A DNA stretch of 64,000 nt from Geminocystis sp. NIES-3709 (GTDB lineage: Bacteria > Cyanobacteriota > Cyanobacteriia > Cyanobacteriales > Cyanobacteriaceae). A model generated the notes under the pieces. The model did no database searches. It saw only the letters and a list, made by a program, of their open reading frames with translations, and was not told the origin of the DNA. The position numbers and the translations under genes were made by a program. Shown piece by piece: positions 15,630 to 38,911 of this stretch. Position 1 is the first letter of the stretch, and the number at the start of each line of letters is the position of its first letter. The DNA is taken from assembly GCF_001548115.1 (NCBI RefSeq), contig NZ_AP014821.1:2049262-2113261 (forward strand). Reading direction: 5' to 3'.

Positions 15630-15651
15630 CCTCTACCTTTAAGGGAAGAGG
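15630..15651. repeat. TTAAGGG-centred palindrome between mazG and GTPase gene
   Basis: CCTCTACCTTTAAGGGAAG plus AGG forms an imperfect inverted repeat around TTTAA. It resembles the palindromes inserted in pheT at 27195-27214 and 27895-27930 and the sequence near 36014-36040. It could be a small REP-like unit or a weak terminator; there is no T-run on the transcribed side. Confidence 0.4.
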
Positions 15652-25037: not shown

Positions 25038-25783
25038 ATGATCAAATGCCCCGAGTGCAATTCTATGCACATTAACAAAAATGGAATGAAAAGAGGAAAG
25101 CAAAATCATCTTTGTGTTGATTGTGGTAGACAGTTTATTAATCCACAACCATCTAATTCCAGAGGTTATAGTGATCAGATTAGAAGTGAGTGCTTAAAAA
25201 TGTATGTCAATGGTATGGGCTTTCGAGCAATTGAAAGAGTAAAAGGAGTTCATCATACTACCGTGATTAATTGGGTGAAAGATGTGGCAAAGCTTTTGCC
25301 CAATAGTTATCAAGCCGAAACCAGACCTAAAGTCGGTGAATTAGATGAATTACAAACATTTGTGGGTTCAAAAAAAACAAAATGTGGTTATGGACTGGAG
25401 TAGATCACTTTAAACCAGGCATTTTAGAATGGGTTGTGGGGGATAGAAGTGCAGAAACATTTCAACCGTTGTGGGAAAGAGTAAAACAATGGAATTGTTA
25501 TTTTTATGTAACTGATGGTTGGAAGGTATATCCTAATTTTATCCCAGAGGGGGACCAAATCATCAGTAAAACTTATATGACAAGGGTTGAAGGAGAAAAT
25601 ACGAGATTGAGGCACTATCTAGCCAGATTACAGAGAAAAACCCTTTGCTATTCCAAGTCTGTCGAAATGCGGAAATATTCAATTTCACTTTTGATTCATT
25701 ATTTTAAATTCCAAGATATTCCCATACCTTATAGAGGTGAGGTGCGATCGTGCAGTGCCACCAAAGGCGATCGCTTTATCTAA
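25038..25783 (+). CDS. IS1 family transposase, two frames joined by -1 frameshift
   Basis: Frame 1 (25038-25403, 121 aa) encodes an InsA-like part: a zinc ribbon with CPECNSMHINKNG and CVDCGRQFI, then an HTH. Frame 2 (to 25783) encodes the InsB-like catalytic part: WLWTGVDHFKPGILEWVVG, VTDGWKVYPNFI, RVEGENTRLRHYLARL. The frames overlap at AAAAAAAAC (25371-25379), the same kind of A-run that drives -1 frameshifting in IS1. A -1 slip gives VGSKKNKMWLWTGVD, which reads like the normal fused protein. The last residues (RGEVRSCSATKGDRFI) come from a HIP1-type repeat and differ from the usual short end. Confidence 0.85.
25744..25775. repeat. HIP1-flanked interspersed repeat, copy 2 (inside transposase tail)
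   Basis: GCGATCGTGCAGTGCCACC...GGCGATCGCT shares flanks and GTGCAG core with 24891-24919. It replaces the natural 3' end of the IS1 transposase frame and supplies its last codons. The remaining IS1 tail (25784-25970) shows no gene. Confidence 0.6.
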
Positions 25784-26052: not shown

Positions 26053-28530
26053 TTAACTGCGTAATTCTACTGCAAATTGTTTAATTAAAGATTCCCGAAT
26101 TTTGTTATGAATCGGATCAACATCAGTATCTTTTAGGGTACCATCGATCGATCTATATACCAAACTAAAGGCTAAACTACGCTTCCCTTCTTCTACGTTT
26201 GCACCCTTATATTCATCAAATAACTTGACATCCACAAGGATTTTACCTCCAGCTTTACGGATAGTGTTAGTAATATCTGCAACGGTGAGGTTAACGTCAG
26301 CAAAGAAAGCTAAATCACGATCGACGGCAGGATAAGTAGAATAAGGTTTAAAAGTAGGAGTTTTTAAATATTTTTGGTCTAAATAGGCGATTAATGGCTC
26401 TAATTGGATTTCAAACACATAAACACTATCAGGGAAGTCTTTGGCTTGACGCAGTTGGGGGTGAAGTTGTCCAAAAATGCCAATTTTAGTCTTATTTAAC
26501 CATAAACTAGCAGTACGACTCGGATGTAATCGATCGTCTTCATTATCGGCTTGATAGGTAATAGGAGCTTTTAAATTGTTAAATAAACTCTCTAAAATAC
26601 CTTTAGCTTCATACCATGTCATGGGTTGAGGTTTACCACTTTTTGTCCAGATACCATCGGTATATAAATCACCCCCTAAAATACCGCCTAAAGCATCACC
26701 TTCTCTCATATTTCCATCTTCAGACCAAAAAACTCGTCCAATTTCAAAACCCTTTAAATAACCATTTCCTTGAGCTTGGTTATATTCAAAAGCATTAATT
26801 AAACCGTCAATTAAATTACTGCGGAGGGCGGAATATTCGTTAAAAAGGGGATTAGCGATTTTTATTTGGGCTTTTTCAGGAGAAACTAAGGAGTATTGCA
26901 CTAATTCCGTTAAGCCTAAGCCTCGTAAATTTGCCCTAATTTGCCGTTGAATTTGGACTTGCGAAGATAAATAACCGACTTGAGATTGAGCGGGTAAAGT
27001 ATCAGTAAAATGATCATAACCGTATAACCGTGCCACTTCTTCGATTAAATCGATTTCCCTCTCTAAATCACGATAACGATAAGAAGGCACAGTGACAAGC
27101 CATGTAAGAGGAAATTCCGTCTTAACTTCCAACTTACAGCCCAAATCTTCCAAAATTCTGACAACATCATCAGGAGATATATCCATCAAAATTTCTCCCT
27201 CTTTTAAGGGGGCGGTTACGAGAGGTTTAGAGATTACCTTCCCTAAAACTTGATGAACTCGATCGAGCCTCAATTCTATAGTATTAGTAAGAGTATCAGG
27301 GCGATTATCTGCCATAGCTTGGGCGACAACTTCCCCTCCTGCCAACTCAAGGATAAGAGAAACAGCACGATTCAAGGCTTTTTCTAACTCAACTTGGTTA
27401 ACACCCCTTTCGTAACGAGTGGAGGCTTCCGTGCGAATACCTTGACTTTTAGCACTTCGACGAATCGGCACAGGCTCAAATAAGGCAGCTTCGAGTAAAA
27501 TATGTTGAGTATCGTCATCAACTTCGCTATCTTCTCCTCCCATAACACCTGCTAAGGCAACGGGATGATTATTGGCTGTGATAAGTAAATTTTGAGGGTT
27601 AAGGGTGCGTTTTTGCCCGTCTAGGGTGGTTAAGGTTTCGTTTTCGTTAGCAAATCTCACTCCAATAGTCAATTCTTCACTGTTGGTAAGATTATATAAC
27701 TTAGTTCGATCGAAAGCGTGTAAAGGTTGCCCCCATTCTAAGAGGATATAGTTAGTTATATCGACAACGTTGTTAATAGGGCGAACTCCTGCGGATTCTA
27801 AACGCCATTGCAACCAGAAAGGAGAAGGGACAATTTTAACATTTTCAATTATTGTACCAATATAAGCGCTACTGGCAGAAGTTTCTTCGATCGAAACCCC
27901 TCTTAATCCCCCCTTAGTAATGGGGGAAGTAGTAAGACTTAATTCTGCTTCAATCGAGGGAAGGTGTAAGTTTCCACCAGTTAAAGCGGCGACTTCTCTG
28001 GCAACTCCTACCATACTTAAAGCATCGGCACGGTTAGCGGTAGCGGTGATGTCTAAAATTACGTCATCTAAGCCTAAAATTGGGCGTATATCTTCCCCTA
28101 CTTGATAGTCGTCTTCTAAGATTTTGATGCCTTCGCTTTCTTTTGCCAAGCCTAATTCTGCTAATGAGCATATCATGCCCTTACTTTCTACCCCTCTTAA
28201 TTTGGTGGGTTTGAGTTTTAAGTCAATTTTTGGTAGGTAACTTCCAAGGGTGGCAACCGGTACAAGTATATCTTTTCTCACGTTGGGCGCACCGCAAACG
28301 ATTTGAGAAGGCGTTTCGTCTCCAATATCCACTTTACATACACTTAGTTTATCAGCGTTGGGATGTCGATCGCATTCTAACACCCTACCAACTACGACAC
28401 CATCCGCCCATTTTCTTCTGTCTTCTATGTCTTCTACTTCAAAACCGGCAACTGTCAAGATTTTTGCCAATTCTTCGGGGGTGATGGTGATGTCAACTAA
28501 TTCTTTTAACCAATTAAATGAAATACGCAT
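26053..28530 (-). CDS. pheT: phenylalanyl-tRNA synthetase beta subunit
   Basis: 825-residue beta subunit of the alpha2-beta2 enzyme that charges tRNA-Phe. Domains in order: N-terminal tRNA-binding (OB) domain with [21 protein letters not shown]3/B4 editing domain ([26 protein letters not shown]), B5 domain, core synthetase-like domain, and C-terminal anticodon-binding FDX-ACB domain ([17 protein letters not shown]). Two short stretches, about residues 200-212 ([11 protein letters not shown]) and 438-446 (APLKEGEI), are encoded by palindromic repeats that recur elsewhere as intergenic sequence and look like in-frame insertions. No pheS lies nearby. Confidence 0.95.
27195..27214. repeat. palindromic repeat within pheT (site 2)
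   Basis: CTCCCTCTTTTAAGGGGGCG, an imperfect palindrome around TTTTAA, lies in the coding frame of pheT and encodes APLKEGE. It resembles the intergenic palindrome at 15630-15651. Confidence 0.5.
27895..27930. repeat. palindromic repeat within pheT (site 1)
   Basis: AACCCCTCTTAATCCCCCC followed by TTAGTAATGGGGGAAGT resembles a repeat type common between cyanobacterial genes. Here it is in frame in pheT and encodes [14 protein letters not shown]. The C-run/G-run pair can form a hairpin in the mRNA. Confidence 0.65.
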
Positions 28531-35875: not shown

Positions 35876-36160
35876 TATATACACACTGCCAAACATTATA
35901 GTTTTATTTATAAGGAATAATTTATACTGAACATAATTTATTTTTCCAGTAATTTAAAAAATTTCTTTTTACCAATTGATAATTGACAATTGATCCATTA
36001 AGGGTTTAAAGCCTCCCCTTTCCTTTTTAAGGGAAAAAGATAAGAGTTTGATCTTTGACAATTCAATCAAAAGCGAGTTCTAGGTTCGAGGGTTTTTGTC
36101 AATTGTTCATTGTTGAATGAATGACTAGAAAATATAACTATCCGTCATTATGTTTGTAAA

Positions 36161-38882: not shown

Positions 38883-38911
38883 CCCCCTGAATTACTCAGG
38901 GGGTTTTTTAT
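38883..38911 (+). terminator. rho-independent terminator of ftsH
   Basis: CCCCCTGA, a five-base loop ATTAC, and TCAGGGGG form a perfect 8-bp stem followed by TTTTTTATTTTT, 18 bp after the ftsH stop codon. Confidence 0.9.

Follow-up and report, generated by a model that had tools for sequence, protein, structure and literature searches.

Palindromic repeat sequences within two linkers of PheT in Geminocystis: probable in-frame insertions tolerated in protein loops

In the 64,000-nt window analyzed here, which is part of a 4.43-Mb genome in 12 contigs (G000), the gene of the phenylalanine–tRNA ligase β subunit (PheT) contains two palindromic sequences in frame. Are these ordinary linker codons, or copies of a dispersed repeat that has become protein sequence? 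The original prediction favored the latter possibility, i.e., a REP-like mini-element incorporated into a tRNA synthetase, and the palindromes and their peptides are indeed present as it had described them, at residues 202–212 and, in the case of APLKEGE, at residues 440–446 inside a somewhat longer second peptide (Table 1). The evidence presented below leads us to favor, with a probability of approximately 0.88, an in-frame insertion of the repeat into linkers of PheT, where it would be tolerated in flexible loops.

Table 1. Location of the features discussed (window positions unless a contig is given)
Feature	Position	Strand	Evidence
pheT, phenylalanine–tRNA ligase beta subunit, 825 aa	26053..28530	−	NCBIfam pheT_bact, E 4.9e-242
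Site 1: 33-bp palindromic repeat copy, coding strand TCCCCCATTACTAAGGGGGGATTAAGAGGGGTT, 11-residue peptide 202–212	27895..27927	−	score 56
Site 2: probable eroded copy, orientation opposite relative to the gene, 11-residue peptide 436–446	27196..27227	−	G002 orthologous site
G002 copy at site 2	G002:C24:17024-17044
Two overlapping ORFs beside pheT	25038-25783	+	by eye
Strongest hairpin of the window	38883-38903
gcvP (L334)	G000:C1:680500-681300
uvrA (L302)	G000:C1:959000-959700
ORF with exact palindrome (L222)	G000:C2:3471-11489

The two overlapping ORFs lying directly beside pheT (121 and 133 aa, in different frames) resemble, by eye, an IS1-type transposase whose frames are joined by a frameshift. 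The window's strongest hairpin, in which CCCCCTGAATTACTCAGGGGG precedes TTTTTT, has the look of an ordinary terminator; it is not a copy of the repeat.

The two PheT sites and their history

The null for the alignments with the element consensus was represented by 12 Markov-randomized 64-kb windows, the best score of which was 27. Site 1 scores 56, far above this value; site 2 scores 20–24, at the null maximum and no better than the null, but it aligns with the copy occupying the same place in G002 (score 32) and is for this reason regarded as being probably an eroded form of the repeat present at site 1. The mini-element nature of the inserts is thus well supported for the first site and probable for the second. 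Four further copies of site 1 (E 4e-4 to 1.5e-3) were found in the same genome. Allowing up to three mismatches, the asymmetric form AAGGGGGGATTAAGGGGGGTT occurs at 6 places in this genome and at 23 in five Geminocystis genomes, the reversed pattern being found at 0 places in these five; the census of the genome under study, made by pattern searches and stretches, is non-exhaustive, and one of the six places (L173, with 3 mismatches, inside a permease gene) probably represents native sequence instead of an inserted copy. Four of the 23 places are in pheT, namely site 1 of G000, G004 and G002 and, in the opposite orientation, site 2 of G002. These copies are spread over both sites and three species, a concentration that would have a chance of ~1e-9 if the places were independent, shared descent implying fewer real events.

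In an alignment of ~110 cyanobacterial PheT sequences, the non-Geminocystis members of the family and the sister genome G001 have proteins of 809–811 aa in which the two linkers are short, and additional length at the two sites is, in this family, seen only in Geminocystis: PheT has 825 residues in G000, 834 in G004, 835 in G003 and 847 in G002, the surplus residing at the two linkers. Distant PheTs lack these residues, although a few of them have longer linkers of other composition at the same or a neighboring place. Compared with the insert-free G001, site 1 has gained a net +5 residues and site 2 a net +10, so that a clean insertion of 11 codons, within the 10–15 residues originally expected, does not hold in this simple form, and either target sequence was also lost or the element was later eroded. 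The sites have diverged further among the relatives. G004 carries at site 1 a second hairpin (NPSYLGGESPRGL), an extra insert (CCCCTCCTATCTAGGAGGGG) for which a search of the genus gave no further copy at E ≤ 0.1; site 1 of G002 is a tandem pair; and site 2 of G003 reads FLSQRRKGAKI, which represents another dispersed repeat (TCTCGCAAAGACGCAAAG...), scored at ~40 copies per genome in G000, G003 and G004. Since G001 groups with G002 in the PheT tree (support 0.72), loss and independent gain of the inserts are inseparable.

Both insert segments are predicted to be disordered loops. In the AlphaFold model of the protein, whose mean pLDDT is 81.9, residues 200–206 and 436–444 are coil with a pLDDT below 50; equally low values characterize loops 511–518, 560–563, 623–633 and 724–731, so that low confidence is not specific to the inserts. 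When the solved PheTs are compared with this protein, both linker places are gapped and poorly aligned.

Anatomy and distribution of the repeat

The alignment of 64 copies defines an element of ~33 bp, (A/T)(C/T)T-CCCCCCTTANTAAGGGGGG-[CT]TRGGGGGGATC, consisting of the palindrome CCCCCCTTANTAAGGGGGG, with its 7-base TTANTAA center, and of a third C/G run. The central TAA closes two of the six reading frames, two are open and two are opened by a single A-to-G change that converts TAG into TGG; the copies within genes use exactly these four permitted frames, the corresponding peptides being DPPQPPLIRGE, SPLTPLNKGG, PPLLRGVRGDQ and SPLIKGGWGGS. Because two frames are open and two are opened by the TAG → TGG change, an insertion that keeps the frame would add a Pro/Gly/Lys-rich, disorder-prone peptide, of which SPLTKGGLRG is a further example.

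Among 149 genomes of the order, 76 contain the exact palindrome, in numbers reaching 80 copies, while its reversed control was found in none of the 149. An exact palindrome was considered intragenic in the family when inside an ORF of at least 150 aa with a margin of 15 bases, and in the other families when inside a long ORF with a margin of 60 bases. By this definition 40 of the 64 exact palindromes of the eight family genomes are intragenic: 13/13 in G004, the closest relative, all in frame within long genes, 3/3 in G002, 1/1 in G000, 14/24 in G008, 5/14 in G006, 3/6 in G011, 1/2 in G009 and 0/1 in G003, where the copy is near a contig end. In five genomes of other families of the order (G147, G076, G027, G154 and G133), on the other hand, only 8 of 45 are in long ORFs, against 66.5% expected for random positions, and 37 are outside. 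The difference in intragenic share with respect to these other families is significant for the family (p 4e-6) and for the genus (17/18, p 2e-8), indicating that an element largely intergenic elsewhere has colonized genes here. Accordingly, the view that such palindromes are otherwise intergenic does not apply to the genus and is correct, in the main, only for the other families sampled; furthermore, the two intergenic sequences initially offered for comparison (15630-15651 and 36014-36040) appear to be outside this repeat family, being absent from the 8 best matches that any of three consensus forms gives in the window. The hosts identified by curated NCBIfam/Pfam models include isoleucyl-tRNA synthetase (IleRS), UvrA, glutamate synthase (GltS), PriA, MutS2, PanC-Cmk, the Mg-chelatase H subunit (BchH), GcvP, urease alpha, CobN, PutA, the MmeI and Eco57I methylases and a polyketide synthase.

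In the genome under study, the exact palindrome occurs a single time (IPPLLRGVRGDQ), in frame within a 458-aa ORF of a 42-kb, plasmid-sized contig.

The stop-free form prevails in coding copies. Among the scored copies of the Geminocystis family, those in intergenic position have 16 TAG and 0 TGG, those in genes 21 TGG and 7 TAG. In G008, G006 and G011 taken together the TGG:TAG ratio is 10:4 in coding vs 0:16 in intergenic copies (p 3e-5), and when only the frames tolerating both triplets are considered in the eight genomes, it is 6:7 vs 0:16 (p 0.004), the copies related by shared descent being retained in both tests. A stop-free subfamily restricted to genes was considered and rejected, since TGG is also found in 9 of 37 intergenic copies of other families; the TGG bias of coding copies is thus at most a family-level pattern.

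Empty, filled and refilled loops

In-frame copies facing empty orthologous sites are found in PheT, IleRS, BchH, GltS, MutS2 and PriA, and GcvP also counts among the orthologues compared in this way. In GltS, G000 and G001 have LKNLNSDGFK where G004 has LKALTPPLVRGAGGDQTYQFK, 33 nt longer. MutS2 contains RILDEIKENNSLVLLDE in G008 and G011, DPPQPPLVRGE with duplications in G004 and an eroded relative in G000; the PriA copy is intact in G004, eroded at the same place in G000 and missing in G001. A single loop of IleRS carries the element in opposite orientations in G004 and in G006, G008 and G009, and is empty in G007 and G010. No target-site duplication could be defined at the empty and filled orthologous sites.

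The same loops are also occupied by unrelated repeats. One loop of BchH contains DPPQPPLIRGE in G002 and G008 and TGRQADRKTGRQ repeats in G004 and G001, another contains AEGRRQKAE in G000, G001 and G003; UvrA of G000 has an SRKDAKTQRE repeat where G004 and G008 have palindromes; and GcvP has the palindrome in G011, G012 and G006 and a CTATCAG-type repeat instead in G000.

Some individual loci may be mentioned separately. In gcvP of G000 an in-frame CTATCAG heptamer repeat (LSYQLSAISYQSLEIS) is located where three relatives have the palindrome, and uvrA of the same genome contains, likewise in frame, a further abundant repeat (ISRKDAKTQREDAK, derived from TCTCGCAAAGACGCAAAGACGCAAAG). The bchH/chlH orthologues (L274-L282) have two loops with in-frame dispersed repeats that differ by species. 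Tandem arrays of palindrome-derived peptides (LTKGGVNTENNS..., SLDNLNKGGE...) were seen in L157 and L152, a methylase and a helicase-like gene of G004, and in putA (L318-L319), which suggests secondary tandem duplication after insertion.

Proposed origin of the inserts and comparison with known repeats

The most likely sequence of events begins with a selfish mini-repeat that a trans-acting mobility system would insert throughout the genome. The ~33-bp dispersed palindromic repeat of Cyanobacteriales would have entered two PheT linkers in a Geminocystis ancestor, and the inserts would now belong to the reading frame and be translated, with a nearly neutral effect on PheRS function. Copies inserted out of frame or in a protein core would have been purged by selection, while those in flexible loops would survive and be eroded by point mutations, duplicated in tandem or joined by further repeats in the same loop.

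The simplest alternative is that the PheT segments are ordinary variable linkers in which the C/G-run palindromes arose from the chance use of CCC and GGG codons for Pro and Gly. Indeed, site 2 by itself does not exceed chance, variation at the linkers is natural, and in genus g5 PheT contains a comparable peptide, NPNQQGGLTAI, that is not encoded by the palindrome. However, the first site matches a 33-bp element with other copies far above the null and with a clean reversed control, 4 of the 23 genus copies are in pheT, and the same DNA is found across unrelated genes, where it occupies four frames and both orientations; this DNA-level identity across genes and frames refutes a chance origin of site 1, and chance is therefore a most improbable explanation for the pair. 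The two outcomes that would have refuted the original prediction, conservation of the same residues in distant cyanobacteria and a lack of further palindromes in the genome, were both contradicted by the data. An insert domesticated for a function and kept by selection, either as a peptide tuning PheRS or as a DNA/RNA hairpin on the transcript, would explain why the site 1 protein sequence is unchanged between G000 and G004 and why several core enzymes bear inserts in matching loops of several species. In fact, the 12 codons of site 1 show three synonymous and no non-synonymous changes, a ratio compatible with constraint but based on too few changes to prove it. This explanation is nevertheless improbable in view of the bad erosion in G000 of the PriA and MutS2 copies that G004 retains intact, of the variation in frame and orientation of the peptide at the single IleRS loop, of the replacement of the element by unrelated repeats in BchH, UvrA and GcvP, and of the absence of either PheT insert in G001.

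As to the means of dispersal, size, palindromic structure and dispersal of the copies fit a classical REP/REPIN family spread by a RAYT (REP-associated tyrosine transposase), and Y1 transposases exist in 7 of the 8 family genomes. Yet a search for the Y1 transposase (PF01797) gave 0 matches in the genome under study, G008, the copy-richest family genome, has only one weak match, and the palindrome is absent from all 12 Y1 loci fetched from relatives; the consensus also lacks a GTAG/CGTC tag. Mobilization by a RAYT, for which no link to the repeat emerged in the family genomes, was consequently set aside and appears doubtful. The insertion of a repeat tolerated in loops remains the preferred reading, and on balance we lean toward a broader one, in which a repeat mainly intergenic elsewhere shifted its niche into protein-coding genes in one cyanobacterial family, with most surviving Geminocystis copies translated, the TAG-free form predominant among coding copies and fixed core-enzyme loops serving as shared landing sites for several unrelated repeats. 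The loops of IleRS, UvrA, BchH, GcvP and PheT, in which the repeat differs from one species to another, are natural replicates that address protein loop gain, tolerant sites and retention by selection in enzymes tractable for direct tests; if the proposed scheme is true, they would reveal that free-living bacteria, too, can repeatedly acquire new protein segments from selfish DNA.

The best-known cases of palindromes read in frame within proteins come from the intracellular Rickettsia and from scattered REPs. The Rickettsia palindromic elements (RPEs; Ogata 2000, 2002, as reviewed in PMC10969869 and PMC2229807) are ~105–150 bp long, with nearly half of the copies intragenic, and a host protein such as Gmk can stay active (PMC2229807). 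By description, the likeness lies in a palindromic repeat inserted without loss of frame into numerous conserved but unrelated protein genes (PMC10969869, PMC2229807); the RPEs, however, are three- to fourfold longer than the Geminocystis element (~33 bp, ~11 residues), which resides in free-living cyanobacteria and has nearly all its exact genus copies within genes. The Nostoc small dispersed repeats (SDR; Elhai 2008, cited in PMC3116915) are likewise, by description, very small mobile cyanobacterial repeats. In the literature searched, neither a gene-rich distribution of such a repeat nor a match to its exact sequence strings was found. Intragenic GTAG/CGTC REPs are 20–40 bp palindromes inside ORFs, including, as here, uvrA and tRNA synthetases, and in one case occupy about the same recB site in two species (PMC3733652). 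The 33-bp dispersed palindrome described here has the size and the copy number of a REP. Its 64 aligned copies, unlike REPs, have no evident GTAG/CGTC tag, one side reading [CT]TRGGGGGGATC; no RAYT/Y1 gene flanked by the repeat was found in G000 or at the 12 Y1 loci of relatives; and its location, mainly extragenic in the other families, is predominantly intragenic in the family and in the genus. For these three reasons it is not classed as a tagged REP. GTAG-15 and GTAG-16 were compared by description only, and the former has loops of 9–15 bp (PMC3733652) vs the 7-base center of the present element. Overall, the element resembles both the Rickettsia palindromic elements and the intragenic REPs, of which it would constitute an unusually gene-rich cyanobacterial form.
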